Source: Candidatus Methanomethylophilaceae archaeon
GTDB lineage: Archaea > Thermoplasmatota > Thermoplasmata > Methanomassiliicoccales > Methanomethylophilaceae
Direction of reading: 5' to 3'
NCBI GenBank assembly: GCA_017935945.1
Contig: JAGBGN010000118.1
Span: forward strand, 1 to 34,846
DNA length: 34,846 nucleotides
The position numbers were made by a program, and so were the translations under genes. The notes beneath the pieces were generated by a model that saw only the letters and a program-made list of their open reading frames with translations, was not told where the DNA came from and made no database searches. Within the stretch, counting starts at the first letter, position 1; every line of letters starts with the position of its first letter. This document shows, piece by piece, positions 469 to 34,723 of this stretch.

Positions 469-909
469 TCAATTCATATCGGGTTCTTCGGGCCACACGG
501 GGTCGTTTGTAGGATATCCCTGAGCATACTGCGTCTGCCTCACGGCCTCGCAGTACTCGTCGATGAGGCGCAGATGCTCGGTGTGCACATCCGTATCGAT
601 CCCCAGACGGATCATCCTCTCGCACTTGGCCCTCCTGCCGTCCATGCGCTGGTAGCGGACGGACCTGCCTGCCTCCTGCAGTCCTGCGGTCCATTGTCCT
701 GCGGGGACGATGGATTGGAGATCCTTGAAGCGGTCGTACTCCGCACGGCTCATCTCCACCTCGTCGTACAGCCACAGCCATTCCTCGATGCCGTTCTCGA
801 CCTCCGAGATGAGGTCGATGTTGCCACGGATGTAGACGGTATCCTCATTCACTTCGATGTTCTGAGGGCGCAGGTCCTGCGTCCCTTTCACTCTGTCTCT
901 ATAGATCAT
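469..909 (-). CDS. Tail-fibre assembly chaperone-like protein downstream of the RT
   Basis: The product has 146 aa. Its C-terminus (IDEYCEAVRQTQYAQGYP then VWPEEP) resembles the end of phage tail assembly chaperones, which typically read L..Y...L.....GFP...WP..P. The N-terminal part is beta-like (NEDTVYIRGNIDLI). The ATG overlaps the RT stop as ATGA, so the two are translationally coupled. Its position directly after a DGR and its adhesin fits a chaperone that folds or attaches the adhesin. It could instead be a non-standard DGR accessory factor, but it is not the usual small basic helical Avd protein. The family call is by eye. Confidence 0.5.
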   Translation of the reverse strand: MIYRDRVKGTQDLRPQNIEVNEDTVYIRGNIDLISEVENGIEEWLWLYDEVEMSRAEYDRFKDLQSIVPAGQWTAGLQEAGRSVRYQRMDGRRAKCERMIRLGIDTDVHTEHLRLIDEYCEAVRQTQYAQGYPTNDPVWPEEPDMN

Positions 910-1964
910 TTCAATGCCTCCGGTCCGAACTCCAAGGCTATGTACACCTTAGAGCTATGGATTTTTAACAGGTTTCTGGAGTCACACCAATTCAACATAC
1001 CCTCATACGAGATCTTCGAGGCAAACATGTGCGCAGTCAATCCCATCTTATGTTTGATGTTCCTGACGATGTGGTTGCACACACGGATGTACTTCACCTT
1101 GTTCCGCTTACGGATCTTCGTATGCGAGTGGCGGAAGACGAATCCCATGAAATCCAGCCCACGGGCCCCCATGGGGAAGATCTGCCAGTTCGATTTGACA
1201 GTCAATCCATAGGAGTTCAGCATTCTGCGCATGAAGTTCAGAGCGTTCCTGAGGACGTTCTTGGATGAGCCCAGTACCACGATGTCGTCCATGTACCGAT
1301 AGTAGAATCTCAAACCGAGGGTCTGCTTGCAGTACCTGTCGAACTCGCAGAGGTAGAACGCCGAGAAGATCTGCGAGGGGTACATCCCGATAGGCAGTCC
1401 GGAATCGCCCGGACACTCAAAGATTATCGTCTCCAGCAAGGAGAGGGTCCTTCCGCACTTGATCTTCCGCTTCACCATCTGGAAAAGGATATCCCGATTG
1501 ATCGAGGGAAAATACTTCTTCACGTCGATCTTAAGACAGTAGCGTGTGTGATCGGGATCGGCCCTGAGATCCTTGCGGATCTGGACTGAGCCTGCATGCA
1601 GACCCTTGCCCTTGATGGCAGCATAGGAGTCCCTGATGCACGTACCTAAAAGGATGGGTGCGACCACACGGAGGACGCAATGCTGGATTATCCTGTCGGG
1701 AAAGGTGCGGGTGTAGCATAGCTCCCTCCATTTCCCGCGTTCAAATATTCTCCTCTGTTTGAATCCCGAGGGACGGTAGTTCTGAGCTTCGAGTATCTCC
1801 TGGACTACGTCTGCATACTTGTCGGGGTTCTCCTTGATGTTGATGACCGCAGGGTCCTTGGCATGGTCCCTGCAGGCATCCTTTATCGCACCGAGGACGT
1901 TCGCCCTGGATTTGATTATGTCGTATAGTTTTACTCCATCTATCTGTGAAACACGTTTTACCAT
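906..1964 (-). CDS. DGR reverse transcriptase
   Basis: This 352-aa reverse transcriptase would copy the template-repeat RNA into adenine-mutagenised cDNA. Visible motifs are the first catalytic Asp in KIDVKKYFPSI (D147), the DGR-type IGMYPSQ (192-198), YMDD (224-227) and LDFMGFVF (270-277). In DGR enzymes the fourth motif typically ends SQ, as here, unlike group II intron or retron RTs. There is no maturase or endonuclease domain, and the length matches DGR RTs. The gene lies 151 bases downstream of the template repeat, in the standard order target gene, TR, RT. The ATG at 1964 has only a weak Shine-Dalgarno (GAGAG). The next gene overlaps its stop. Confidence 0.93.
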   Translation of the reverse strand: MVKRVSQIDGVKLYDIIKSRANVLGAIKDACRDHAKDPAVINIKENPDKYADVVQEILEAQNYRPSGFKQRRIFERGKWRELCYTRTFPDRIIQHCVLRVVAPILLGTCIRDSYAAIKGKGLHAGSVQIRKDLRADPDHTRYCLKIDVKKYFPSINRDILFQMVKRKIKCGRTLSLLETIIFECPGDSGLPIGMYPSQIFSAFYLCEFDRYCKQTLGLRFYYRYMDDIVVLGSSKNVLRNALNFMRRMLNSYGLTVKSNWQIFPMGARGLDFMGFVFRHSHTKIRKRNKVKYIRVCNHIVRNIKHKMGLTAHMFASKISYEGMLNWCDSRNLLKIHSSKVYIALEFGPEALK

Positions 1965-2115
1965 GTCGATCTCTCATGATGTGTCCGGCGCGTTCCCACG
2001 CCCTTCCGGGGGTACCAGCGACGGGATCGTATGTTCGTGATTTTTTGCCGAGAGGCATGGCTGCAGGGATTTTCCCTCCGGTCGGGAATATTCCACTGTT
2101 GGAGCGTGATGATTC

Positions 2116-2261
2116 ATGAGATGCGGGACCCGATATTGGAGTTAGTTTCAGTAGCCGAATTGTTGAAGTTCAGATTGAAACAACCAGCATTGTCACCGTT
2201 GTTATAGTTGCCACCGAAATTCGGGAAATTCGAGGCATTGACATTGCCATTGTCACACCAA
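2116..2261 (-). repeat. DGR template repeat (TR)
   Basis: These 146 bases align without gaps to 2389-2534. Read on the minus strand, TR contains 40 adenines. Nineteen differ in the variable repeat, and none of the 106 non-adenine positions differs. TR is rich in AAT/AAC codons, 15 in the frame matching the target gene; 12 of these, plus two ATC codons, are altered in VR. Mutagenised AAY codons are the hallmark of DGR templates because they can reach many residues but never a stop. TR ends with its own TGA right after the GC-rich CGGGTCCCGC block. Confidence 0.95.
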
Positions 2262-2368
2262 GACCAGTCGTACCCTGCCGCCGTTTTCGGGAAAGGGGTT
2301 TCGGGCGTGGTTAGCGGTCCATCGCACCTCCGTTAAGGTCGGTCACTGCGTTCCCTCCTTGAAAGCGG

Positions 2369-3997
2369 TCAGGCTCCGCCTGCCCGGTATGAGAGGCGGG
2401 ACCCGACATAGGAGCTAGTTTCAGTAGCCGAATAGTTGAAGCCCAGAAAGAAACAACCAGCACTGTCACCGTTGTTATAGCGGCCACCGAAACGCGGGAA
2501 ATACGAGGCAAGGACATAGCCATAGTCACACCAATATGTGGTTGCAGATCCAGAGCAGGCCTGCGGGAAGAACCCTGTCTCCGAGGTGCCCACGACGTCC
2601 GAGATGTATCCCGACAGGTTCGAGGACAATACCGGAGTGTTCTGCAGGGTGAAATCCGCCTCGTTGATGGATGCTAATCCATCGACGATGGTCATCAGCT
2701 GTCTGCTGGAGTTCGTCTTCATACCTCCGATGAACTGGTAAATGTTGCCCCAGAAATCATGGATCCAGAAGAACGACATCCTAGCTGTGGTACTCGTGGA
2801 CCCCGCCATACCGTAGTCGTTCGAGAACGACAGTGCAGTGTTCGCTTGAACCGCAGACCCTCCGACATAACCCTGTCCGAGTGCCGTCTGGCAGTTCGTG
2901 GACCTGTACAGCAGGGTGAAGAGCGCCTGCAGGTAGATCACGTGGTGGCCCATGAAGAGGTCATATCCTGCGCCACGGTTATGTGAATAGGTGATGAAAT
3001 CCGTGATGCTCGTGTTGACTGTGGGAGTGTTTCCGATTCTGGAGTACAGCTTCGAGTTCAGATTATATCCAAGGAAGCAACCCACGGCGAACTGCCCCAC
3101 ATCCTCCCCATCGAACATCGATGCATACCTATGATATGAGCTATCGACCTGTTTGTTGGAGAACCGTATGTAGATATAGGTACTATCGTTTGTGATGGAT
3201 AGCCACCATGTAGGGATGACTGTCAATGCATCATTGCCTGCGACATCGATATTGGATGCAGATCCATCGATGGTCTTCGTCAGATCCCTCTTGTTCAGAT
3301 CCGTGAACGTTTTTCCATTGAAGACCACGGGCCTGATGCCGGAGATGAGATTATTCCCCGCCCATGAGTTCAGAGCTGTACCTGATGCGGGGGTGAAACT
3401 AGCACAATCATCGATATAGACACACCTAGAGGTAGGGGAGGACGTGGAACGTGCGATCCTCACACCGTAGATATACGTCGGTTCGAGATTCACCTGAGTC
3501 ACCAAAGTGCTGATGACTACAGTCTTGGTGGTGCCCTGCGGAATCGAGAAAGTCCATTCCGAGTTCGCAGGAAGACCGTTGAACGTCGCGATACCCGATG
3601 CGTTGGAGGTCTCCGTGTATGTCGTCTCCCCATCGGTCGCAGTGACCACCGTGTTCTCCGAGGTCTGAACAATGACCACGGTCGATACCGCCGCATAGCT
3701 GAACAGGTCGAACAGCACCCCGTACTGCATCGTGCTCTCGGTGATGACCGTCTGGGGGTCATCGTTCTCATAGTTGCCCTGATGGGTCAACGTGACCGTG
3801 TATGTGATCCCGGCATCCACCTCTATGTACGCCCTGCCGGATGCATCCGCGTTCACCGTGTAGGTCTTCCCTCCACCGGTCAAGGTCCATGAGGCAGTGG
3901 ACAGGTTCTGTCTGTCCGTGGTGTTCACACTCAGGCTGATACCCGCCTTTCCTGCGGGTACATCGGGAGGATTCCCACCCAGGAATGCTCCGATCAT
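2369..3997 (-). CDS. DGR-diversified receptor-binding/tail-tip protein
   Basis: The product has 542 aa. The N-terminal 180 residues read as two beta-sandwich (carboxypeptidase-regulatory or Ig-like) modules, for example GKTYTVNADASGRAYIEVDA and ETSNASGIATFNGLP. A long middle domain follows, and the C-terminus (WCDYGYV, FGGRYNNGD, FNYSATE, SYVGSRLS) has the Trp/Gly/Asn-rich look of the C-type lectin fold that DGRs diversify. The last 50 residues are the variable repeat. The likely role is binding the host surface at the tail tip, with the DGR changing specificity. The ATG at 3997 was chosen; TTG at 4003 is an alternative, spaced closer to the AAGGTGA Shine-Dalgarno. It lies at the end of the tail operon and just upstream of TR. 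Confidence 0.88.
   Translation of the reverse strand: MIGAFLGGNPPDVPAGKAGISLSVNTTDRQNLSTASWTLTGGGKTYTVNADASGRAYIEVDAGITYTVTLTHQGNYENDDPQTVITESTMQYGVLFDLFSYAAVSTVVIVQTSENTVVTATDGETTYTETSNASGIATFNGLPANSEWTFSIPQGTTKTVVISTLVTQVNLEPTYIYGVRIARSTSSPTSRCVYIDDCASFTPASGTALNSWAGNNLISGIRPVVFNGKTFTDLNKRDLTKTIDGSASNIDVAGNDALTVIPTWWLSITNDSTYIYIRFSNKQVDSSYHRYASMFDGEDVGQFAVGCFLGYNLNSKLYSRIGNTPTVNTSITDFITYSHNRGAGYDLFMGHHVIYLQALFTLLYRSTNCQTALGQGYVGGSAVQANTALSFSNDYGMAGSTSTTARMSFFWIHDFWGNIYQFIGGMKTNSSRQLMTIVDGLASINEADFTLQNTPVLSSNLSGYISDVVGTSETGFFPQACSGSATTYWCDYGYVLASYFPRFGGRYNNGDSAGCFFLGFNYSATETSSYVGSRLSYRAGGA
2370..2382 (-). other. Hairpin just 3' of the variable repeat
   Basis: On the minus strand CAGGC-GGA-GCCTG forms a 5-bp stem with a 3-base loop. 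It overlaps the last codons and TGA of the target gene and starts six bases beyond the VR. The TR lacks it. In the Bordetella phage DGR a hairpin or cruciform a few bases downstream of VR marks the target site; this is the equivalent position. Confidence 0.65.
2389..2534 (-). repeat. DGR variable repeat (VR)
   Basis: The VR encodes roughly residues 488-536 of the target protein (counted from the ATG at 3997), covering FPRFGGRYNNGDSAGCFFLG and what follows. Compared with TR, Asn codons have become Tyr, Leu, Arg, Ser, Phe and Gly, and two Ile codons have become Val and Leu. Every change is at a template adenine. A GC-only block, CGGGTCCCGC, near the 3' end is identical in both repeats and is the likely initiation-of-homing region. 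Confidence 0.95.
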
Positions 3998-4016
3998 CGT
4001 CAAATAATCACCTTCA

Positions 4017-4910: not shown

Positions 4911-5514
4911 CTGCCACTCCGATGGTTATCGCCGAGGTGGGTTTCTCGAACATCGCACGGAACACGATGGTGAGCCCCGACAGGGAGCACACGTGGATCC
5001 CCGCCCTGCCTATGGCCTCGGCCATGGCTGTGGACGTCAGCTCCGTCGCTCCGCACACGGCGGTCTTGAGGCCCTTGGACAGGGTCATCGCCGCCATCCA
5101 CGGGCCCGTGCCCGTCCATGCGGACGCGGGTATCGATACGGTGGTCTGATAGGGGAAAGGCCCGGAGATCACCCTGATGGGCAGGTTCTCCTTGGGCAGG
5201 ACGGAGTGGGCCTTGAGCTGGACCTGTCCATCCGCCACGATTATCCCCTGCAGCAATCCGTTGTACTCCGCCATCCTCTGCTCCAATGTCGCGTTGTGGT
5301 CCACGTAGGCGATGGCCTCCGAGGACATGTCAATCCCATCCGTCGCGATCGTCATCGCATAGGGTCCCGTGCCCGTCCACGCGACCGCCGGGGCCGTGTA
5401 GAGCCCTGCGACCAGCATCCTAGGTCTCACCGAGACCATGAACGTCTGACCTGCATCGACTGTCGAGGGGGTGACCCCGATATGCTCGATGATGACCGCT
5501 TGGACGGAAGTCAC
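4903..5514 (-). CDS. Tail-tip protein, paralogue of the 4017-4910 product
   Basis: The product has 203 aa from GTG 5514, which overlaps the upstream TGA. It contains the same two-module body: WTGTGPYAMTIA then AYVDHNATLEQRMAEYNGLL, and WTGTGPWMAAMTLSKG then LTIVFRAMFEKP. The sequence is beta-rich with no signal peptide. It ends in TAA, eight bases inside the next gene. It is probably a structural protein of the tail tip that arose by tandem duplication; exact function unknown. Confidence 0.6.
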   Translation of the reverse strand: MTSVQAVIIEHIGVTPSTVDAGQTFMVSVRPRMLVAGLYTAPAVAWTGTGPYAMTIATDGIDMSSEAIAYVDHNATLEQRMAEYNGLLQGIIVADGQVQLKAHSVLPKENLPIRVISGPFPYQTTVSIPASAWTGTGPWMAAMTLSKGLKTAVCGATELTSTAMAEAIGRAGIHVCSLSGLTIVFRAMFEKPTSAITIGVAGA

Positions 5515-5789
5515 ACGACCGCCCTCACGTTGATGCGATGGACCTCGGTCCACCTGTCGTTACCCATGGTCCAGGTCACGGCGATATCGTGGACCCCTAC
5601 CCTGGTGGCCTCAAAGCGGAACGAAATGAGGTTACCCTCACCGATCGCCATGTCGCCGGCCTGCACCACCGCGCCGTTGACATAGACGGTGAAGATGGCC
5701 GAGCTCACCTTGCGGTCGGGATCCGTCGTGTCCTTCACCGTGAAGCTCACGGGGAAACGGTCTCCTACGTATGCATCCTGCATCCTCAT
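5511..5789 (-). CDS. Small Ig-like tail protein
   Basis: The 92-aa product is almost entirely beta-strand (FPVSFTVKDTTDP, SAIFTVYVNGAVVQAG, HDIAVTWTMGNDRW). It resembles the single Ig-like domains often found in phage baseplate or fibre operons. The ATG at 5789 overlaps the upstream stop as ATGA. It is a member of the tail-tip cluster; role in assembly inferred from context only. Confidence 0.55.
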   Translation of the reverse strand: MRMQDAYVGDRFPVSFTVKDTTDPDRKVSSAIFTVYVNGAVVQAGDMAIGEGNLISFRFEATRVGVHDIAVTWTMGNDRWTEVHRINVRAVV

Positions 5790-6175
5790 GCCTCCGCACG
5801 GGGACAGACGATGGGTAGCATGTCACAGACGGGGCGCAGGATCTCGACCATCTCGGAGCAGGCCTTCGGGTGCATGATGCACAGGGGCCTGTCCTCCGTG
5901 ATGGTGTACCCGGGCCTGCGTATGGGGTGCATGATGCACTCCCCGCCCGTGTCCAGCCAACGGATGCACTTCCTACCGCCGAGGCTGATAGTCAGGATGG
6001 CGGCGCGGTAACCAATATTACCGACGTCATCCTGCGCCCAGAACTCGCAGTACAGGTCCCCGATGAACCCATCGGGGACCGTGAAGAAGAAGTCGTCTCC
6101 GTTGCGATGGAAGGGGAGGGAGTCCTTGCCGTCAACCCTCCCCCACATGTTGACCACCGTCATGTCTGACCTCAC
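5786..6175 (-). CDS. Cys-rich tail-cluster protein with paired CIMHP motifs
   Basis: The product has 129 aa from GTG 6175, in a GTGA overlap with the upstream stop; ATG 6163 is an alternative. The first 65 residues are beta-rich (DDFFFTVPDGFIGDLYCEFW). The last 60 hold seven cysteines, including two CIMHP motifs 18 residues apart and a C...C...CP tail. This suggests metal binding or disulphide stapling, which is unusual in a tail protein. No family recognised. Its place between two Ig-like proteins suggests a virion role. Confidence 0.5.
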   Translation of the reverse strand: MRSDMTVVNMWGRVDGKDSLPFHRNGDDFFFTVPDGFIGDLYCEFWAQDDVGNIGYRAAILTISLGGRKCIRWLDTGGECIMHPIRRPGYTITEDRPLCIMHPKACSEMVEILRPVCDMLPIVCPRAEA

Positions 6176-7101
6176 GCATCGGTTGCTGTGACCTTGATCA
6201 CGGTCGTCTTTCCGACGTCTATGGGATTCTCGGTCAACTCGACGTTGGTCACAGTGGGCGCAGAGGTATCGAGGATGACGATCCTTGTCGCCTCGGTGAC
6301 GTTACCGGCGGCATCCACGACTCTGAATCCGATGGTGTTGGAACCGTTGGACAGGGTGATGTCCTGGGTTCCCGCTCCGCCGGAGATGGTGGGCGTGTAG
6401 GTCTTGGATCCGTGGGTGATGGTCACAGTAACGCCTGTCTGATCGGACACCATGAACATCAGCTTGAGTGCCGCCACGTTGGTCCTGGTGGTCTCCTCCG
6501 CAGGGTTGGTGATGTTGAGTGTGGGGTTGGTTCCATCGATGGTGAACGCTGCGGATGCGACCGCTGACTGGTTGCCGTCGTAATCGGATCCGTAGACCTC
6601 CACGGTGTGGTCCCCGTCCGAGAGTGCGGGACTGGGGATGTATGTTGCGGTGGCCACCCCTCCGCTTATCGACGGTGTGACCGCTATGGCGTTGCCGCTG
6701 TCGATCTTCACGAACACCGCGTTGGGGTTGACTCCCGAACCCGTATCCGTGATGGTCCACTTGATCTCGGGCGCCCTGTTGTTGATGTATGCCCCTGCTG
6801 TGGGGTATGAGAGGACTGCAGTGGGTCCAGTCTTCTCCAGGACCTTGAGCCTGAGGGTCTCTCCCCATGTGGGGTCTGTAGAATCGATTGTGGTGACGTT
6901 CCCGACGTCATCGGTCAGTGTGATGGTGATGGGATAGTATCCTTTACCCTGGGCCTCTGCTCCGATATCCACTCCCTGTCCGGAGTTGTTGGATCCGGAT
7001 GATTTGGACGGTGCAGTGAGCGTACCCGTCCATACCCCTCCCGATTCGGTGAGGGTTGTGGTAACACCCGCTTGGGTTGCGGTTACAGACACGATGGTCA
7101 T
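6172..7101 (-). CDS. Ig-like repeat adhesin/tail fibre protein
   Basis: The product has 309 aa in three or more bacterial Ig-like modules. Each carries conserved motifs such as SDGDHTVEVYGSDYDGN, FTIDGTNPTLNITNP and GSNTIGFRVVDAAGNVTE, with D.S.P.V linkers. The N-terminus is short and there is no signal peptide, which fits a virion-attached fibre rather than a secreted protein. The ATG at 7101 has no Shine-Dalgarno, but a TATA box and a perfect operator lie 14-30 bases upstream, so the mRNA is probably leaderless. It heads the tail-tip and DGR transcription unit. Confidence 0.7.
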   Translation of the reverse strand: MTIVSVTATQAGVTTTLTESGGVWTGTLTAPSKSSGSNNSGQGVDIGAEAQGKGYYPITITLTDDVGNVTTIDSTDPTWGETLRLKVLEKTGPTAVLSYPTAGAYINNRAPEIKWTITDTGSGVNPNAVFVKIDSGNAIAVTPSISGGVATATYIPSPALSDGDHTVEVYGSDYDGNQSAVASAAFTIDGTNPTLNITNPAEETTRTNVAALKLMFMVSDQTGVTVTITHGSKTYTPTISGGAGTQDITLSNGSNTIGFRVVDAAGNVTEATRIVILDTSAPTVTNVELTENPIDVGKTTVIKVTATDA

Positions 7102-7114
7102 GGACTCTCGATGG

Positions 7115-7132
7115 TTAACGGTGTTTATAAAT
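7115..7132 (-). promoter_or_regulatory. Promoter/operator of the tail-tip and DGR operon
   Basis: On the minus strand TTTATAAACACCGTTAA combines a TATA box (about 7123-7131) with a perfect 13-bp element (7115-7127). The ATG is 14 bases beyond the element, which puts the expected transcription start at or near the start codon. Confidence 0.65.
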
Positions 7133-7192
7133 ATGTGTTAAAGATATTCGATGAGTGAGCATCTGCTCTGTTCCAATCGGGCATTCTCCTTA

Positions 7193-7215
7193 GGGCCGAA
7201 AGGCCCACCTTTTTA
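7193..7215 (+). terminator. GNRA hairpin with T-run, plus strand
   Basis: GGGCC-GAAA-GGCCC (7193-7206) is followed by ACCTTTTTAA, like an intrinsic terminator for plus-strand transcripts. Its reverse complement recurs at 7428-7441. No plus-strand gene lies upstream, so it may instead insulate or structure the intergenic region. Confidence 0.4.
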
Positions 7216-7223
7216 ATGATTAT

Positions 7224-10738: not shown

Positions 10739-12886
10739 TCACATCGGATTTCCACGGCGTAAAGAGTCCTGCTGAGTGTACTTGTAGATTCCACGAGCCA
10801 CCTGCCTGCCATCGAGCTCCACAGTCATGTTGATCTCGATCGGGCGGTTGGTCGTACTGCCTCCCATCTTCTGTAGTGCACGGATGACCGATTCCTCGAT
10901 CATGCTCTCTGGTGCGATGACTTCGCGCTCACGAGGGTTGTCTCCGACCATAATCAGAGCAGGGTTGCGAGGCTCGATTACTCCACCTGTGGCATAACCA
11001 CGATTCTTGCGGATGTAATCCATCTCTATATCCGCCTGATTAGACCAGAACTCATTCTCCGAACCTCCACGCCATTCGTTAATTTCTGCCTTAAGGTTGT
11101 CCCACAGGGACGTAGGTTTCGAATTCTGAGCTTTAGACAATTGCTCAATACGGTTTTCCGCTTCCTCGATTTCTCCCCGTATATTATTGATCTTGGCTTC
11201 CAGAGAGGCCATTTCTTTTCCAAGCCCTTCGAATATAGTATTATAGTTCGTTTCGATTGCTTCTAGTTTCCGAGCGAAGGCATCTTCCATTATCAATGCA
11301 AGCTCATCACTTACGAATCCAAATTCTGTGGTAAGTTCTGCCCAGGTATCAGACATCAGGGTCTGATATTTGTCATAAGTATTCTCCAAAGCTTCGTCCC
11401 TACTCTCTTCGAGGGCTTTTACAGTCTCTTCCTCTCCTGCCAACCGCGCCTCATTGATCGCCTTGTCAAATTCTTCGTTGATAAGACGCTCCTCTTCCTT
11501 GAACTCCAAGACCTTGTCGTATAGGTCCTCATAGAACTGATCCATGAGGGCCTCTTTCTCAGCCTGTGTGAGTTCCTGGTTGGCCAATTCGGACTTGAGC
11601 ACCCAGTCGAAATACTGATCGTACTGTCTCCTCAGATCTTCTACAGAGTCATATGAACCATCCAGAATCTCGTTCCACATGTCATCCAGAGCATCCACGG
11701 CCCTTTCCGGCTCGGTCTCGAACAGCTTTACCCATTGGAGGAATGCCTCTTCCCCATCCTTGAACTCATCCGAAACACCTTCAGCCTTGTCGAACTTCAG
11801 GATGTTCAGTTGGTCGAATCCCAACAGACCCACCATCGCCGCCCTAGCCTCATCCGCAGACTTCGTGACGTGGTCCAGCATGGCATCCAATGCGGACGTG
11901 TCCGCTACAGCCTCGTCTGCATCCAGGTCGAAGATAGGATCCTGACCCAGGAATCCAGCAAGCTCATTGGCCCCTTTCCGGATCCACGTCCATGCCTCCT
12001 TCGCGTTCTCGATGACCTCGTTGAGCTTCGCCGTGGCACGGTCCGCCAGAGCTGTGAGTCCATTGGCGACTGCAGTGACGGCGGGACTCAGCACCGTACC
12101 TAGTGCCTCCTTCAGCTCCCTCGCGGATGCATCCAGGTTGTTCAATGCCTTGGATGCGGATAGGGACTCCTCCCCGTACTTGCCCATGTCATCACCGTAC
12201 TCCTCCATCAGGAGGTTGTACGCGGCGAGTTGCTTGGCCTGTACGGTCAGCTCTTCGCCGACCTGTGCGATCTTCGAGCGATACGCCTCGGCCTTCAGGG
12301 CCTCCTCGTCGAAACCAGGCAACAGCTTTTCCAGAGCTTCCTCCCCACCACCTACCGCAAGATCCTGCAGCAGGTCCTGTATGGTGGCCACATCCATATC
12401 CTTCCTGACCGCAGAGATGTCGTAGGCCAGCTGTGTGAAGTCCTTGGCCATCTGGAACGCCTGCGATGCCCCGTTGCCCGCACGCTTGAACCCCTCGTTC
12501 AGCTTGGCGGAGTACTGCTCCACCTCACCCGAGTACACTCCGTAGGCCTCGGACAGCTCTTCGGCCCATCCCCATGCCTCCTCGGAGAACACCCCGAAGG
12601 ACCTCTCGAAATACGAGTCGACACCCTCGGCCTTGGATGCGAACTTCGCCATATCCACGGCCATCGCAGATAGTGCGGTACCTGCGACCAGTGCTGCGCC
12701 CACCCAGCTGGCCTTGAACCTGTCAGCCGAGTCCGAGGCCTTCTTGAAGCTCCTGTCGATGTCGTTGCTCGCCTCGCGGGCCCTGGTCTTCAGCTCCCCC
12801 ATCTTGGCCTTGGCCTGCTCCACACCACGGAGGAACCCGGACGTATCCGCTGTAAAACGAGTGTTGACCGGCTCTGTATCAACCAT
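10739..12886 (-). CDS. Tail tape measure protein
   Basis: The product has 715 aa. The N-terminus (residues 1-60) is the typical start of tape measure proteins (DTSGFLRGVEQAKAKMGELK). A short hydrophobic stretch (WVGAALVAGTALSAMAVDMA) follows, then long helical and coiled-coil regions rich in Glu, Lys and Ala, including LEESRDEALENTYDKYQTLM. It scaffolds tail length and helps DNA pass. At about three residues per 0.5 nm, a tail near 100 nm is expected. The C-terminus has YATGGVIEPRNPALIMVGDNPRE, a motif common at tape measure ends. The ATG overlaps the upstream chaperone stop by eight bases. Confidence 0.88.
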   Translation of the reverse strand: MVDTEPVNTRFTADTSGFLRGVEQAKAKMGELKTRAREASNDIDRSFKKASDSADRFKASWVGAALVAGTALSAMAVDMAKFASKAEGVDSYFERSFGVFSEEAWGWAEELSEAYGVYSGEVEQYSAKLNEGFKRAGNGASQAFQMAKDFTQLAYDISAVRKDMDVATIQDLLQDLAVGGGEEALEKLLPGFDEEALKAEAYRSKIAQVGEELTVQAKQLAAYNLLMEEYGDDMGKYGEESLSASKALNNLDASARELKEALGTVLSPAVTAVANGLTALADRATAKLNEVIENAKEAWTWIRKGANELAGFLGQDPIFDLDADEAVADTSALDAMLDHVTKSADEARAAMVGLLGFDQLNILKFDKAEGVSDEFKDGEEAFLQWVKLFETEPERAVDALDDMWNEILDGSYDSVEDLRRQYDQYFDWVLKSELANQELTQAEKEALMDQFYEDLYDKVLEFKEEERLINEEFDKAINEARLAGEEETVKALEESRDEALENTYDKYQTLMSDTWAELTTEFGFVSDELALIMEDAFARKLEAIETNYNTIFEGLGKEMASLEAKINNIRGEIEEAENRIEQLSKAQNSKPTSLWDNLKAEINEWRGGSENEFWSNQADIEMDYIRKNRGYATGGVIEPRNPALIMVGDNPREREVIAPESMIEESVIRALQKMGGSTTNRPIEINMTVELDGRQVARGIYKYTQQDSLRRGNPM

Positions 12887-15666: not shown

Positions 15667-16662
15667 TCAGGCAGAGGGTGCAGTGAGTGCGTAGAGTCCT
15701 CCGACCTTGTTCTTCATGATGAGACAGTCATGGTAGATCCTGTAGTCCAGCCATGTGGAGTTGATGATACCGGGAACGGTTCCGGGCGCGAAGATCTGGC
15801 TTGCCTCGGAGGCGACGAGTCCGTTTGCGACGCCCTGTGCGACGATGAGAACTGCGACCTCGGATGCATCGTCTTTAGGGGAGAATCCTCCGGTGGGGAC
15901 GTCTGCGGCGGTTGCGGGCTCCTGGTCGGAGATACCGCTCGCATAGTCGTATGCGGAGTACATGTAGTCCGAAGGGGTCCAGATGATCTCTGCATCGTTG
16001 ATCATGTCCACGCCGGTGTCGAGCTTCCTGTATCCTGTGTCGATGCCCTTTGTACGGGTGTACTCTGAGGAGTTCTCGAGTACGCTCATGTACTTGTCGT
16101 TGATGTGGATCTTCATCCCTGTGGCACCCTTGTGCTTGAGGTTGATCTTGACCTTGGTAATGGCCTCGGTGATATCGGAGAGGAACGATGCTTTGGAGGG
16201 AGTGATCTCCTTGGTGTTCTGAGCCTCGATAGCCGTGTCCGCACAGGTGGAGAGCCTTGTGACATCGATCTCGGGAACGACAGAGAGTCTCATGAACTCC
16301 GAGAGGACGGCGGTCCCCCTGATGAGTCCGTTCTGCTGCATCATGTCCACACCATCGAGGACGAAGGACCTAGCACGGTCGAATCTCAGCCTGTAGTCGG
16401 TGAACTCGGAGCTCACTGCACCAAGGGGGCTTCCCTTGAACTTGCTGTAGTTTCCGAGTCCGGAAAGGGAAAGAGTGGGAACACTGAACACTCCAGCCTC
16501 CTTGGATGCCTGGAAGAGTGCAGGGTTCGGGGTCATGTAGCTTGTAAGCACGTCAGCCGTGGCGATCTCGTCGGTGATCTGAGTGAGGTACTTCTTGATC
16601 TCCTCGAAGCCGTTGGGCTGGCCCTGGGGCAGGGTCTGATTGGTCAATGTCATTGCAGCCAT
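15667..16662 (-). CDS. Major capsid protein (HK97 fold)
   Basis: The product has 331 aa. It begins with a short N-arm and helix (NGFEEIKKYLTQITDEIATA), followed by an E-loop/P-domain-like region (YRLRFDRARSFVLDGVDMMQ). It ends with A-domain-like strands (GIINSTWLDYRIYHDCLIMK then KVGGLYAL). The ATG at 16662 has GGAGG seven bases upstream. The gene follows a scaffold gene and precedes connectors, the canonical order. No separate protease is visible, so maturation probably uses the scaffold without cleavage or a divergent protease. Confidence 0.85.
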   Translation of the reverse strand: MAAMTLTNQTLPQGQPNGFEEIKKYLTQITDEIATADVLTSYMTPNPALFQASKEAGVFSVPTLSLSGLGNYSKFKGSPLGAVSSEFTDYRLRFDRARSFVLDGVDMMQQNGLIRGTAVLSEFMRLSVVPEIDVTRLSTCADTAIEAQNTKEITPSKASFLSDITEAITKVKINLKHKGATGMKIHINDKYMSVLENSSEYTRTKGIDTGYRKLDTGVDMINDAEIIWTPSDYMYSAYDYASGISDQEPATAADVPTGGFSPKDDASEVAVLIVAQGVANGLVASEASQIFAPGTVPGIINSTWLDYRIYHDCLIMKNKVGGLYALTAPSA

Positions 16663-16675
16663 GTTTTAGCCTCCA

Positions 16676-17179
16676 TCAGAGGCCCGCGGCCTTGCGCATG
16701 ATCGACAGCATCTCGGAGCCTCCGTCGGTTCCCGTCGGTGCAGGGGGTGCCCCCTTACCGACCATATCCGCGTACATCTTGTTGGCCCACTCGCGTGCGA
16801 CCTTCTCGATGCTCTTGATGTTGGACATGGTCTCCTCGTCCGTCTCTCCCATAAGGGTGCGTGCCAGCGATGTGTCGAGACCGACCTTAGCCAGCTCCCT
16901 CTCCGTGGTTCCGATGCGGACCTTCAGCTCAGCATCCTCAGCGCGTTTCTTGTATGATGCCATCTGCTCGTCGGCTTCCGCCTTGAGCCTGTCGGCCTCG
17001 TCCATCTTACTGCGCTCGATCTCCTTCTGGTGCTTCTTCTCCAGGTCCTTCAAGGCGTTCTCGTGCTTCGCGTTTATCGCATTGATGCGCGAGGACACGA
17101 TCTCGTCGATCTTGGCCTGCTGTTCGGCTGTGAAGGTGACCTCTTTGGATTCCGATATGTCGATATTGTCTTCAGCCAC
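16676..17179 (-). CDS. Capsid scaffolding protein
   Basis: The product has 167 aa with a long charged coiled coil (residues 12-75, including KIDEIVSSRINAINAKHENA and KKHQKEIERSKMDEADRLKA) and a Gly/Pro-rich tail (GKGAPPAPTGTDGG). That is the layout of phage scaffold (DUF4355-like) proteins immediately upstream of the capsid gene. The start is GTG 17179 with GGAGGG seven bases upstream. Its promoter includes a 40-bp element shared with the terminase operon. Confidence 0.8.
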   Translation of the reverse strand: MAEDNIDISESKEVTFTAEQQAKIDEIVSSRINAINAKHENALKDLEKKHQKEIERSKMDEADRLKAEADEQMASYKKRAEDAELKVRIGTTERELAKVGLDTSLARTLMGETDEETMSNIKSIEKVAREWANKMYADMVGKGAPPAPTGTDGGSEMLSIMRKAAGL

Positions 17180-17246
17180 GGTTTACCCTCCGTTATGGTA
17201 CGGTAAACACCGTTAATCTGGTATATAAGCATTTTAACAGTGTTTA
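17177..17246 (-). promoter_or_regulatory. Capsid-operon promoter with paired operators
   Basis: A TATA box, CTTATATACC on the minus strand (17220-17229), is flanked by two inverted copies of the 13-bp element: TAAACACCGTTAA at 17204-17216 and TTAACAGTGTTTA at 17234-17246. Bases 17177-17216 are identical to 21544-21583. The segment includes the Shine-Dalgarno GGAGGG and the GTG start of the scaffold gene, plus a dyad of GTTTA/TAAAC and CCGT/ACGG around it. Expected start near 17197. Confidence 0.7.
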
Positions 17247-17289
17247 CGAGGCATCCGACTGTGATTACACATCTTCCGAGAAAATACAC

Positions 17290-18360
17290 TCATCTGGATT
17301 CTGAATCCGACACGAGTTTCGGCAACCTCTTCAACTGCAGCGTTCCCGCCTTGGTTCCGAATCTCCTTTCCCACTCATCGTAGCTCATGTCCTGCGGAAT
17401 GGTGATGTGCTTACCCTCTGCGTTCCTTGCAGCCTTCCTGGCGGTCGCTTGGATCTCCGGAGGGAGCACCTGACGGATCCTGCATCTGCAGTTGGGGTGG
17501 AAGGTCGGTTTCACTGCCTTCGGGTCGTCGAGTCTGTACCTCTTCTTGTCGTACTTCCTGCAGATCGGGCAGGTGCGCTCGTCATAGGTGCATTGGATCT
17601 CGTACTCCTCTATGCCGAGCTTCCTCAGCTCCTCCTCCTCGGCATCGACCGCCGCCTGTGCTATGGTGGTCCTAACCAGCCTGCGGGCCTTGTACGCCTC
17701 CTTCCCGGTGTAGAGCTCCACCTCCCTCGTCATGGTCTTCAGGTCACGCCCTGAAAGCATGCCCTTGGTGACGATCTCCTTGACGCCCTCCATCTCCTGC
17801 TTGGAGAACAGCTTGACCAGGTCGTACACCCCGGTCCCCGTGACCACCTGATCGATGTTCCTGGTGGAAGGGAGGTCGAAGCGGAACCCCATACCCAACT
17901 GCTTCTGAGTGGAGAACACGGTGCGCTTGGCCCCCTTCTCGGCGGTGTCCTCCAGTGCCGGGATCAGGCGCCCCTCTATGTCGGACCTCAACCTCTTGGA
18001 TGCGAGCTTCTGGGCCTTGTCGATGGCCTGTGCGCGTGTGATGCGCCAGTTGTATGCCGAGGAGGAGAGGCGGGTCAGCTCCCTGGTCCTCTCGGGCTCA
18101 GGGAGCCTGCGTGCGGCCTCGATCAGCACGGCACGGTCCTTGGGCTCTATGAAGCCCTGCAGGTACGCCCTCGCCTCCTCTGTGGACTCGAACCCGCCTT
18201 TGGCGGCGTAGGTGGAGAGGATGGACCCCATATCGTCCACGAGGTCCCTGGAGGCACGCCGTGATGCCCTTGCTATCTGCACTGACACCACGGCCACCAA
18301 TGCCTGGTAGTCCAAGACTGCATCGGTGTTCTCCTGCTCCTTGTCCTCCTCAGATGTCAT
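17290..18360 (-). CDS. Minor head protein, MuF / SPP1 gp7 type
   Basis: The product has 356 aa. The N-terminal 200 residues are helical. The C-terminal MuF domain shows RRLVRTTIAQAAVDAEEEEL, then CTYDERTCPICRKYDKKRY and HPNCRCRIRQVLPPE. The CxxC and HPxCRC cysteines and histidine are the conserved metal-like cluster of the family. It is packaged with the head near the portal and may accompany DNA. The ATG at 18360 overlaps the portal stop by 11 bases. Confidence 0.88.
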   Translation of the reverse strand: MTSEEDKEQENTDAVLDYQALVAVVSVQIARASRRASRDLVDDMGSILSTYAAKGGFESTEEARAYLQGFIEPKDRAVLIEAARRLPEPERTRELTRLSSSAYNWRITRAQAIDKAQKLASKRLRSDIEGRLIPALEDTAEKGAKRTVFSTQKQLGMGFRFDLPSTRNIDQVVTGTGVYDLVKLFSKQEMEGVKEIVTKGMLSGRDLKTMTREVELYTGKEAYKARRLVRTTIAQAAVDAEEEELRKLGIEEYEIQCTYDERTCPICRKYDKKRYRLDDPKAVKPTFHPNCRCRIRQVLPPEIQATARKAARNAEGKHITIPQDMSYDEWERRFGTKAGTLQLKRLPKLVSDSESR

Positions 18361-19732
18361 CCTCGTCCTCCGGGATCATGTCCTGACCGAGGTTGCCGTT
18401 GAGGAAGTCCACCTCCTGCCTGCGCTGACGTGCGTCCTGCTCCTCCTCCTCACCCCTGATGCGCTCGAGCTCCTCCTGCACATCGTCCACATAGGGCACG
18501 AAGCCGAGTGCGGTCTCACGGGAGAGGAGGCCGTTCTGGATGAAGATCTGGAGACTCTGGGCCTCGAAACTGGGGTCTGTGGGGAGGTTGAAACGGAACT
18601 TAACATCCATCGACCTGACATCTGCACCTGCATCACCGAACATGGCGCTGGAATACAGCCTGCACCTCCTGCGGAAACCCTTGCGGAACTCGGCCTCCAG
18701 GGCCTGCGACACGTTGAGCAGTCCGAGCAGCTTGTATTTCATGGCCACGCCTGAGGTGTTGGATGCGAACTGCTCATCCGACAGGTCGGGGATTCCGGTG
18801 ATCTTGTGGATGTTGGTGGTGACGTCGTCCACGAGGATCTGCACGGAGGCCTCGTCGAAAACCTTGGTCAGGTATGTAAGATCGGAGTCACGGGGGATGG
18901 AGATGTACTCGTCCTCCTTGACGGTACCCATGACCTCGTCTACCTCCTCGTCCGAATCACCGAAACTCATTCCCTTGGCGACCATGATGGCGGAGGCGAA
19001 ACGGTTCTTGTCGCGGATCCTATCGGACAGCATCTCGTTGAGGGAGGTCTGCAGGTCGAGGATAGGCTCGAAATCACCGATGCAGTCAGGGTTGTTCAGA
19101 TACTCGACCATGGGCACGGATGAAAATCCATGGAGCCTGCGTGTGCCGGGAACCTCCACCCATGCGGAGGATTCCGCCGCCCCTGTCATCTGGTACCTCA
19201 CGACCTCCTTGTCATCGTAGACGTCCAGGAAGTCGTCGACGGTCCCGTCATCGCGCTCCACGGCGTAGTGGATGGCACCGAACACGGGTTTGGGGTTGAG
19301 TGTCTGGTCGTATGCGATGAAGCCGTCCAGGGGACTGACCTGCACGGATTGGGGCGTCAGGGCGCCGTCGACCATGTCCATGTACTCCAGCTCGATGCCC
19401 CTGCCGTAGCGGGATGCATCCTTGACCAGTTGCTGGTCGAGTGTGGCCAGCGTCTGCTCGTTGTAGAGGTCCACGATCTCCTGCCCCTTCACGTCCCCTG
19501 CATCTGCCTCGTACACGGGCGGGATGCCCGCCACAAAGGATGCTTTGGTATCGCTGATGTACTTGCAGTAGTTGACGGAGAGCTTGGCGAGCTTGGCCTC
19601 CGTCCCGGTCCTCCCTGTGAAATACGCGTTGTCCAGGATCCTGAGGTGTTCGGCCCTCCTTCTGAAATGGTCGTATGCGTTCTTGATGCTGGTCTCCGTG
19701 TACGGAGTAGGTGTCCTGATGATGTCTTTCAT
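18350..19732 (-). CDS. Portal protein (SPP1 gp6 family)
   Basis: The product has 460 aa. Family features include the opening helix with FRRRAEHLRILDNAYF, KLSVNYCKYISDTKASFVAG, the central FSSVPMVEYLNNPDCIGDFE and LQTSLNEMLSDRIRDKNRFA, and a C-terminal acidic tail (IRGEEEEQDARQRRQ, then PEDEDDI). It forms the dodecameric DNA gate at one capsid vertex and is the docking site for the terminase encoded just upstream. The ATG overlaps the terminase stop (ATGA). Confidence 0.9.
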   Translation of the reverse strand: MKDIIRTPTPYTETSIKNAYDHFRRRAEHLRILDNAYFTGRTGTEAKLAKLSVNYCKYISDTKASFVAGIPPVYEADAGDVKGQEIVDLYNEQTLATLDQQLVKDASRYGRGIELEYMDMVDGALTPQSVQVSPLDGFIAYDQTLNPKPVFGAIHYAVERDDGTVDDFLDVYDDKEVVRYQMTGAAESSAWVEVPGTRRLHGFSSVPMVEYLNNPDCIGDFEPILDLQTSLNEMLSDRIRDKNRFASAIMVAKGMSFGDSDEEVDEVMGTVKEDEYISIPRDSDLTYLTKVFDEASVQILVDDVTTNIHKITGIPDLSDEQFASNTSGVAMKYKLLGLLNVSQALEAEFRKGFRRRCRLYSSAMFGDAGADVRSMDVKFRFNLPTDPSFEAQSLQIFIQNGLLSRETALGFVPYVDDVQEELERIRGEEEEQDARQRRQEVDFLNGNLGQDMIPEDEDDI

Positions 19733-20985
19733 TTCCTCACCCTTGGCTCGATGAACGTGGCGACCATATACCTGGTCTCGTCCACGGTGTCATCGTATTG
19801 CTTAACCGGTTTCGTCTCACCCCTCTCGCTGGCCTTCTCGTCCCAGTGGTAGAGGTATATCCCGTCGATGGTCTGGGGGCAGTCCGGGGAAATGAAGAGC
19901 CTCCCCGTGTTCAGCATCCTGGCCATCTCGCTGATGCCGTCCAGAACCGATTTGTTAGGGTTCTGTGGCATCCAGCGGCGTTTCTCGAACTCGCGTGCGA
20001 GGGCTTCCCCTCCCCCTCCGTAGTCGATGGCTACATTCATGCGGTTGATACCGCCGAGCTTGTCGGTGATCTCCTCGAAAACGCGCAGATAGTCCGCCGT
20101 GGTCATGCTGGCGGACTGTTCAGGGGTCGCCACCCACTCCCGGACCTTGTACCACTCCTTGGTGGACGGTGAACGCCCATACCACCCCATCGCGGTAGGG
20201 TGGACCGCACCGTAGTCTATTGCAGCGTAGCCCACCTTGACATCGGAGGGAGGGGTCTTGATGCACTGCGGGCCGAAGAAGGGAAACACCAACCCCTCGG
20301 CTATGCACCTCTCCCCGAGGATCTTGCGCTTGTACTCCATACCCGTGTAGCGGAGCTTGAGCGCCGCGATCTTCTTCGGGGTCATGATGGGGTTGTCCTC
20401 GAGGACGAAGTGGAACTCGTGGTAGCCTCCGAATGCCTCTTTCTCCTCGGGTGACATGTGGAGGTACTTGTCGGTGTGCTCCACATACAGGGGATGCCTT
20501 GGATTGTCGGGATTGCTCGTCCAAACCATGTACGGATAGTCGGATGCTGCGAGACGCGCCATGGCCTCGTTGATGAAATTCTGGTGATGCTTCGTGATTT
20601 CGTCCGCATACCAAAATTCGGCGGTGACTCCCCTCAGCTGGTCATCACTGTTCGCCTTGCCTCCTCCGAAGAGGTAGATCGTCACGTCCCCGTGGTCGGT
20701 GGGCACGAGGATCTGGTTGACGTTGTCCCTCATCCCGTGCTTGGCCTTGGGACACAGGTCCAGGAAACCCATCTTCGACTTGATGCAGTTACGGATCAGA
20801 GACCCGATGGTGTTCCCGGACATGATCCCGACCTTGACGGGGTGGGTGGCGATGTAGTACAACAAAGACATGAGGCTGGCCTGCGTCTTCCCCGACCTGA
20901 CGGGACCCTCGTAGAACTGCAATGCATCACAGCACACGATACGGCGATTCACCTTGGCGGAGAACGGTCTGAGACCTTCGCTCAT
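19729..20985 (-). CDS. terL: Terminase large subunit
   Basis: The 418-aa packaging motor has an N-terminal ATPase with Walker A GPVRSGKT (27-34) and Walker B FWYADE (124-129). The C-terminal RNase H-like nuclease has Asp in AAIDYG (D257), AIDYGGGG (D321) and the YDDTVDE region (about 398-402). It cuts and pumps DNA through the portal. The length is normal for the PBSX-type family. The ATG overlaps the small subunit stop. Confidence 0.93.
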   Translation of the reverse strand: MSEGLRPFSAKVNRRIVCCDALQFYEGPVRSGKTQASLMSLLYYIATHPVKVGIMSGNTIGSLIRNCIKSKMGFLDLCPKAKHGMRDNVNQILVPTDHGDVTIYLFGGGKANSDDQLRGVTAEFWYADEITKHHQNFINEAMARLAASDYPYMVWTSNPDNPRHPLYVEHTDKYLHMSPEEKEAFGGYHEFHFVLEDNPIMTPKKIAALKLRYTGMEYKRKILGERCIAEGLVFPFFGPQCIKTPPSDVKVGYAAIDYGAVHPTAMGWYGRSPSTKEWYKVREWVATPEQSASMTTADYLRVFEEITDKLGGINRMNVAIDYGGGGEALAREFEKRRWMPQNPNKSVLDGISEMARMLNTGRLFISPDCPQTIDGIYLYHWDEKASERGETKPVKQYDDTVDETRYMVATFIEPRVRK

Positions 20986-21543: not shown

Positions 21544-21611
21544 CACGGTTTACCCTCCGTTATGGTACGGTAAACACCGTTAACCGAGTATAAAACCATT
21601 AACGGGGTTTA
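21544..21611 (-). promoter_or_regulatory. Terminase-operon promoter with paired operators
   Basis: On the minus strand the TATA box GGTTTTATACTC (about 21587-21598) is flanked by inverted element copies, TAAACACCGTTAA (21571-21583) and TTAACGGGGTTTA (21599-21611). Bases 21544-21583 are a perfect copy of 17177-17216. This is probably the main late promoter and is likely switched by the same regulator. Confidence 0.7.
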
Positions 21612-21708
21612 CTTCGCTTTTGAGTAAACGTTTTGAGAAAAATCGAGGAAGTGCGGTGCAGAGTTCACAGAGCCACCACACTTCAAAAGGATTAGTCTAT
21701 GGAGTTAC
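21612..21708. other. Intergenic region between accessory and late operons
   Basis: No gene is seen. On the minus strand it holds T-rich stretches (GATTTTTCTC near 21631-21640), which in archaea can end transcripts, so the long accessory operon may stop here. A partial element, GAGTAAACG, lies at 21622-21630. Together with the possible extension of the 21829 gene and the promoter, this fills the 295-base gap. Confidence 0.35.
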
Positions 21709-33751: not shown

Positions 33752-34666
33752 TTAAAAGTAGCCCTTCATCACTTCTTCAAGGTTGTCCTGAGCCTTCCTG
33801 CACCTAACAGGGTCCGCGTTGATGTAACACCTATAGGTCACAGAGATATCGGAGTGCCTCATGAGCGTCTTCAAGGTGTTGGGATCGACCTCGACCTCGT
33901 TGTAGAGGGTGGAGGCGAACAGCCTCCTGAGCGAGTGTGTGGTGACATCGACACAGCAGAGCTTGCCGAGGTCGCTCACCTTCTTACTCATGGCGGCGAC
34001 GCACAGTCCTCCCCATACTCCGTACTGGAGGCCCTGCACCAGATGGTCGTCATCAGGATCCTCGATGCCCGTTGTGGATCTGTACTCCTTGGCATGGATG
34101 ATGGCCTGCATCACAGGCTCCGGGATCTCCATGTTCGCCTCCAGTCCCTTGCCGTGTCCCTTTCCGTAGACGTGGAGCTTCCCACAGCTGATGTCCCTCC
34201 ATCTCGCACCGCAGATCTCCGCGCGCCTGAGTCCCATCATGGACCCCAGCAGTAAAGCCGCCCTCATGTTCGGATCAGCGTTGCGGAGCATCATCTTGAA
34301 CTGCCCGAGACTGATGAACTTCCTGTCGATGGATTCCCTGTTGTAGAGGATCCCTGCCATCTTCTCAAGGTCCTGTCCGGTGAAGTGGGCGCAGAACCTC
34401 GAAACCAGACGGAGGTTGGACTTGGCAACCGTATCCTTGACCTGCATCGCTGATTTGAGATACTGGAGGTCGTCGATTGTGATCTCCTCTGCCCTTGTGG
34501 GCCTTCCTGCCGCCTCAAGGATCTTGAGGAGTCTGACGAGGTCGTACCTGGTTGTCCTGCAGGTCGATTCCTTGCGTCCTGTGCGCTTGAGGAAATCGAT
34601 GAAAACATCGACCTGCTCGTAGATTCCAACCCTTCCTGCTTGCTCTGTGCTGATTTTTCCGTCCAT
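33752..34666 (-). CDS. int: Tyrosine recombinase (integrase)
   Basis: The product has 304 aa from ATG 34666. An N-terminal SAM-like core-binding domain spans residues 18-105. The catalytic set is complete: R147 in GLRRAEICGARW, K169 in YGKGHGKG, H244 and R247 in HSLRR, H271 in MRHSDIS, and nucleophile Tyr281 (or 278) in YRCYI. It integrates and may excise the viral genome, implying a temperate life cycle. A longer frame opens at GTG 34711 but would start before the predicted transcription start. The TAA stop leads into the dyad cluster. The N-terminal domain is not fused to an arm-binding domain. Confidence 0.9.
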   Translation of the reverse strand: MDGKISTEQAGRVGIYEQVDVFIDFLKRTGRKESTCRTTRYDLVRLLKILEAAGRPTRAEEITIDDLQYLKSAMQVKDTVAKSNLRLVSRFCAHFTGQDLEKMAGILYNRESIDRKFISLGQFKMMLRNADPNMRAALLLGSMMGLRRAEICGARWRDISCGKLHVYGKGHGKGLEANMEIPEPVMQAIIHAKEYRSTTGIEDPDDDHLVQGLQYGVWGGLCVAAMSKKVSDLGKLCCVDVTTHSLRRLFASTLYNEVEVDPNTLKTLMRHSDISVTYRCYINADPVRCRKAQDNLEEVMKGYF

Positions 34667-34723
34667 TTCTTCACATCCTTTCCTGGGATGCGGAGGGGGA
34701 GAGAGACACACACATACGGACAG

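Follow-up and report, generated by a model that had tools for sequence, protein, structure and literature searches.

Does the region 906–3997 of an archaeal contig hold a complete diversity-generating retroelement (DGR), and which protein of which organism does it diversify? The window, i.e., the whole stretch of DNA analysed, is the 34,846-nt contig JAGBGN010000118.1 of a Candidatus Methanomethylophilaceae archaeon (assembly GCA_017935945.1). An earlier note, made from the sequence alone, had described a target gene with a variable repeat (VR) at its 3′ end, a template repeat (TR), and a reverse transcriptase (RT) on one strand in canonical order, in a probable archaeal tailed virus. We conclude, with a probability of about 95%, that the cassette is the DGR of a temperate tailed virus infecting Methanomethylophilaceae, which are methanogens of the gut type, and that its role would be to diversify the putative receptor-binding tail protein of this virus.

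The gene order on the minus strand is target (VR at its 3′ end), TR, a 151-nt spacer, and RT, and each part was found where the earlier note had placed it. The distance of 151 bases that it gave between TR and RT was exact, and both RT motifs that it named, IGMYPSQ and YMDD, are present in the open reading frame (ORF) 906–1964. The target start that it implied is also the most likely one, with an ATG at 3997; the TTG at 4003 is merely the first start taken by the ORF finder. TR and VR align without gaps over 146 nt with 87% identity. All 19 mismatches fall at TR adenines (8 A>T, 7 A>G, and 4 A>C), and the other three bases of the TR are matched throughout, which is the polarity expected of a DGR. 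Given 40 adenines among the 146 bases, the probability of adenine-only mismatches is P = 4e-13. In the target frame, 12 of the 15 AAY codons of the TR are changed in the VR, and the amino acid differs at 14 of 48 codons. A stop codon cannot be reached from any TR codon, whatever its adenines mutate to, and the upper bound for the reachable variant proteins is approximately 4e22. Between the VR and the end of the target ORF lie 20 bases, stop codon counted. A BLAST search of the complete host metagenome-assembled genome (MAG) with the TR returned the copies at 2116–2261 and 2389–2534 only, with no second VR.

The structure of the target was predicted with AlphaFold2 from an alignment with 24 relatives from viral contigs, and the model was compared with the PDB using Foldseek. 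The model had a mean predicted local distance difference test (pLDDT) of 84.4 and a predicted template modelling (pTM) score of 0.75. Its best three PDB matches were chains of TaqVP (5vf4; E=5.5e-11), the C-type-lectin DGR variable protein of the bacterium Thermus aquaticus, with a template modelling (TM) score by target of approximately 0.49 and a sequence identity of 16%. The moderate TM-score is perhaps related to a differing arrangement of the N-terminal beta domains. The predicted fold, with a solved DGR variable protein as its best match, agrees with the C-type lectin fold that the earlier note had proposed for the target C-terminus. Its naming of the target as a hypermutating tail-tip adhesin stands in part: the target is a tail protein whose variable domain is C-type-lectin-like, and its exact place in the virion and ongoing hypermutation are only inferred. 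Approximately 20 of the 37 loci examined with target relatives in viral contigs have an A-biased TR/VR pair of their own; therefore, the target family is often under DGR control. A target homologue (44% identity) is located at 5356–7218 of vir335 (BK063680, L011). The 13 kb of vir335 that were read contain no TR/VR pair, and none of the genes annotated in this stretch is an RT. The homologue is apparently an orphan or formerly diversified adhesin.

Related cassettes had the same base bias. L086 (IMGVR_UViG_3300014039_000036), on a 65.9-kb contig of an uncultivated virus, was found via the target family; an RT-only query of viral contigs had missed it. It shares with the window the order of VR/target, TR, RT, and small gene, with identities of 49.5% for the RT, 44% for the target C-terminus, and 45% for the small gene. 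Its 146-nt TR and VR differ at 20 positions, at A only, and its target has another N-terminus. The Methanomassiliicoccales virus vir215 (BK063676, Caudoviricetes sp.) has syntenic virion genes, a phrog_5302 tail protein, a TR, a phrog_1423 RT, and the small gene. The 122-nt TR and VR of vir215 have 15 differences, also A-only, whereas its RT (35%) and target (32%) are more distant from those of the window and its RT belongs to a separate DGR sub-lineage. In the relatives G053, G055, and G058, the TR/VR differences were 18, 21, and 22 at A and 0, 0, and 1 at other bases, respectively.

The Bordetella phage BPP-1 (mtd, avd, TR, brt), with A-directed mutagenesis known from the literature, resembles the window in gene order, C-terminal VR, spacer, and post-VR hairpin. 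It differs in having avd between mtd and TR; none was found at the window cassette. The first DGR reported in an archaeal virus was that of ANMV-1 in 2015 (PMC4372165); the earlier note had mentioned reports of DGRs in archaea and at least one archaeal virus. The ANMV-1 DGR differs from the window in being drawn with Avd, and the DUSEL4 DGRs differ in being cellular (PMC4372165). We also detected DGRs in both vir215 and vir525, which were deposited as methanogen viruses. A 2023 compendium of methanogen viruses reportedly described DGR enrichment in gut methanogen viruses. Since DGRs of archaeal viruses have been published and vir215 carries the same cassette, the window DGR is not a new kind. 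It is a complete, well-formed case of a mechanism known in bacterial phages and a few archaeal viruses.

Directly after the VR, a hairpin spans the target stop codon, with a stem of 5 bp, one mismatch, and 3 bp, and a GGA loop. Considered by itself, it stands out only moderately (z -2). Hairpins occur near the equivalent position in BPP-1, vir215, G053, G055, and G058, and L086 differs in that no post-VR hairpin was found by the same test. The nanoarchaeal DUSEL4 DGRs have hairpins with GRA trinucleotide loops within the target gene, which by their description are akin to the GGA loop here (PMC4372165). The hairpin at 2366–2386 is a probable cis element of retrohoming. The TR-RT spacer is 151 nt long here, 144 nt in BPP-1, 136 nt in vir215, and 285 nt in L086. 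A G/C stretch, GGGTCCCGC, resembling an initiation of mutagenic homing (IMH) site, is common to TR and VR, and the TR/VR homology 3′ of the last mutated A is 6 nt only. The TGGGGT/TGGAAT IMH pair of the ANMV-1 and DUSEL4 DGRs, compared by description, was not seen in the window (PMC4372165).

We propose that the TR and spacer would be transcribed and that the RT would copy the TR RNA to cDNA, misincorporating opposite adenines. The cDNA would then take the place of the VR in the 3′-terminal part of the tail-protein gene, a recipient site that may be marked by the hairpin together with the short 3′ homology. Since the TR would be left unchanged, the round of diversification would be repeatable. 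The product would be a receptor-binding protein in which as many as 15 Asn positions could vary freely while the C-type-lectin-like scaffold stays stable, at no risk of stop codons. Variant virions could thus be matched to new surface ligands of the methanogen hosts.

Several results weigh against a working DGR in an archaeal virus. A clear IMH/IMH* difference, i.e., a fixed change between TR and VR, was not seen in the aligned repeats. When viral and genome contigs were scanned for the exact pattern, any base being allowed at the variable positions, no close VR copy was found. No bAvd (PF22296) match above the cut-off was found in the genome of the window, in ten related DGR-bearing genomes, or in vir215 and vir525, in a search that recovered the BPP-1 avd at 2e-37 as control. 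Avd is required in BPP-1 and is common, not universal, among DGRs. Among clustered regularly interspaced short palindromic repeats (CRISPR), no spacer was found for the window: same-genus genomes hold five near-matches of 32–35 bp, none in a repeat array. These near-matches were rejected as host-linking spacers because no array surrounds any of them.

The missing Avd homologue and the lack of close relatives with a different VR, together with the long branch of the RT, would fit a DGR that was formerly active and is now silent, with a defunct RT or RNA and a fixed VR. However, the RT ORF and its catalytic motifs are intact, the absence of any non-A mismatch over 146 nt argues for recent retrohoming, and the related L086 cassette is equally clean. 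We consider a silent DGR rather unlikely, though it is the strongest of the alternatives.

The contig encodes a virion gene set of terminase large subunit (TerL), portal, minor and major head proteins, tape measure, and tail genes, and was binned with a 1.57-Mb, 99% complete MAG carrying mcrA. A bacterial phage contig mis-binned into this archaeal MAG would explain why the RT and head proteins are also 25–38% like those of bacterial phages and would agree with the lack of a CRISPR spacer match. Against such an error, the virion genes have their best relatives in vir215 and in syntenic proviruses of the same genus (TerL 61–63%, portal 50–52%), and syntenic DGR proviruses are present in same-genus Methanomethylophilaceae genomes. 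The G055 provirus lies within a single-contig 1.66-Mb archaeal genome, with a seryl-tRNA synthetase stretch on one side and an integrase on the other, after which come diphthamide-synthesis and queC genes. Diphthamide synthesis is an archaeal and eukaryotic pathway. We regard mis-binning as very improbable. The virion genes uphold the tailed virus of the earlier note, and its archaeal host is supported, indirectly, by the mcrA gene of the MAG and the provirus inside an archaeal chromosome. We assign the contig to a temperate Caudoviricetes virus of Methanomethylophilaceae (Methanomassiliicoccales).

The RT scored 315 bits against phrog_1423, a family that also takes in BPP-1 Brt. It was far under the cut-offs of the group II maturase, retron, and defence RT (DRT) models (group II, 93 of 300 bits). 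In a maximum-likelihood tree rooted on group-II-like RTs of the same archaeal family and containing no retron RT, it was placed in the DGR clade with a support of 100/99, apart from the group-II-like RTs; its separation from retrons comes from the model scores. This outcome of the RT tree that the earlier note had suggested speaks for its reading. Adding the L086 RT shortened the long branch of the window RT, and the two paired at 100/100; the position of the pair among DGR RTs is not fixed by the tree. With its IGxxxSQ and YxDD motifs, the RT is by sequence a member of the DGR RT clade. A tail-gene duplication beside an unrelated RT (group II intron, retron, or defence RT), to which the weak scores of shared RT domains against the group II maturase and DRT models might point, can be dismissed on these bit scores, the tree, and the adenine-only bias.

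Table 1. Features of the DGR cassette and of the surrounding virus genome in the window.
Feature	Position	Strand	Details
Small gene across RT stop	469..909	-	45% identical to gene after L086 RT
DGR reverse TRANSCRIPTASE (RT)	906..1964	-	352 aa; IGMYPSQ + YMDD intact; RVT_1 E=9e-18; phrog_1423 E=2e-93
TR-RT spacer	1965..2115	-	151 nt; probable part of DGR template RNA, role inferred
Template repeat (TR)	2116..2261	-	146 nt; 15 AAY codons in target frame, 0 reachable stops
Hairpin directly after VR, across target stop codon	2366..2386	-	CGGgCAGGC-GGA-GCCTGaCCG; -8.8 kcal/mol, z -2
Variable repeat (VR), target 3′ end	2389..2534	-	146 nt; 19 mismatches vs TR, all at TR adenines
DGR target, 542-aa tail protein	2369..3997	-	phrog_5302 E=6e-51; N-terminal beta domains, C-terminal C-type-lectin-like variable domain
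Tape measure protein	10739..12886	-	phrog_1535 E=2e-18
Major head protein	15667..16662	-	phrog_422 E=4e-47; 34% to vir215
Portal protein	18350..19732	-	phrog_64 E=4e-89; 50% to G055 provirus
Terminase large subunit (TerL)	19729..20985	-	phrog_2 E=7e-31; 63% to G055 provirus
Tyrosine integrase (temperate virus)	33752..34711	-	phrog_1 E=2e-24; 41% to vir215 integrase

Terminal repeats and a tRNA attachment (att) site were not found in the window. An imperfect direct repeat of ~70 bp (87%) is located at 17177–17247 and 21544–21612, with its copies directly upstream of a scaffold-like gene and of a terminase-small-like gene.

The small gene at 469–909 encodes 146 aa, is not Avd-like by sequence, and gave empty or chance-level results in Pfam, NCBIfam, and PADLOC scans. 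Its positional equivalents in vir215 and G058 had weak Phage_tail_APC matches under the cut-off. It is probably a tail-module gene, such as one for a tail assembly chaperone, and not an Avd substitute.

The similarities along the cassette point in two directions. Over its first ~98 residues, the target is 47–52% identical to a gene in the G055 and G058 proviruses, and residues 110–540 are closest to L086 (44%) and vir335 (44%). The RT and small gene are nearest to L086, while the virion genes and the target N-terminus are nearest to the same-genus proviruses. The simplest reading of these identities is a chimeric target, whose adhesin C-terminus would have been swapped together with the TR, RT, and next gene. 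That domains become fused to lectin regions at the C-terminus has been proposed as a general pattern (PMC8144416). We speculate, with less than even confidence, that methanogen-virus DGRs operate without Avd, relying either on their RT alone or on an accessory protein that has escaped recognition, and that a single swappable cassette of adhesin C-terminus, TR, and RT is passed between viruses.

Besides the window, 14 loci with an A-biased TR/VR pair were found in 10 of the 102 genomes of the family, and four related genomes (G004, G058, G076, and G077) have two DGR loci each. A second, cellular class comprises L037 and L069 (both G004), L038 (G074), L040 (G060), L070 (G070), L071 (G058), L072 (G076), and L073 (G077). 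Its order is TR-RT-target, and the target start overlaps or closely trails the RT stop. The targets have a signal-peptide-like start and an internal VR from about residues 360–460. Flg_new and PKD domains follow the VR in two scanned targets, and four complete targets have a membrane-helix-like end. They are apparently membrane-anchored surface proteins of the methanogen itself. The RTs of these loci are monophyletic (100/99), and SP replaces the SQ of the DGR hallmark IG...SQ. The RTs of L038, L072, and L073 have YADN in place of YxDD; even so, nearly all TR/VR differences of these loci are at template adenines. The L070 RT (G070:C1, 9803–10753) lies beside a target ORF that is at least 3052 aa long. 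Its RT match contains an in-frame TGA, and its TR and VR have 3 mismatches at bases other than A; L070 is possibly a decaying DGR. A relative of the window RT, L201, is present in the named methanogen strain Methanogenium cariaci JCM 10550 (NZ_BBBG01000005.1) and may be an experimentally accessible case.

With the window cassette, the few DGRs known from viruses of methanogenic archaea gain a clean and complete member, which has syntenic proviruses in the same genus. It makes host-range switching of archaeal viruses, and the question of whether Avd is required, open to testing in an archaeal system. The DGRs of the cellular class suggest that these methanogens diversify their own surface proteins too.

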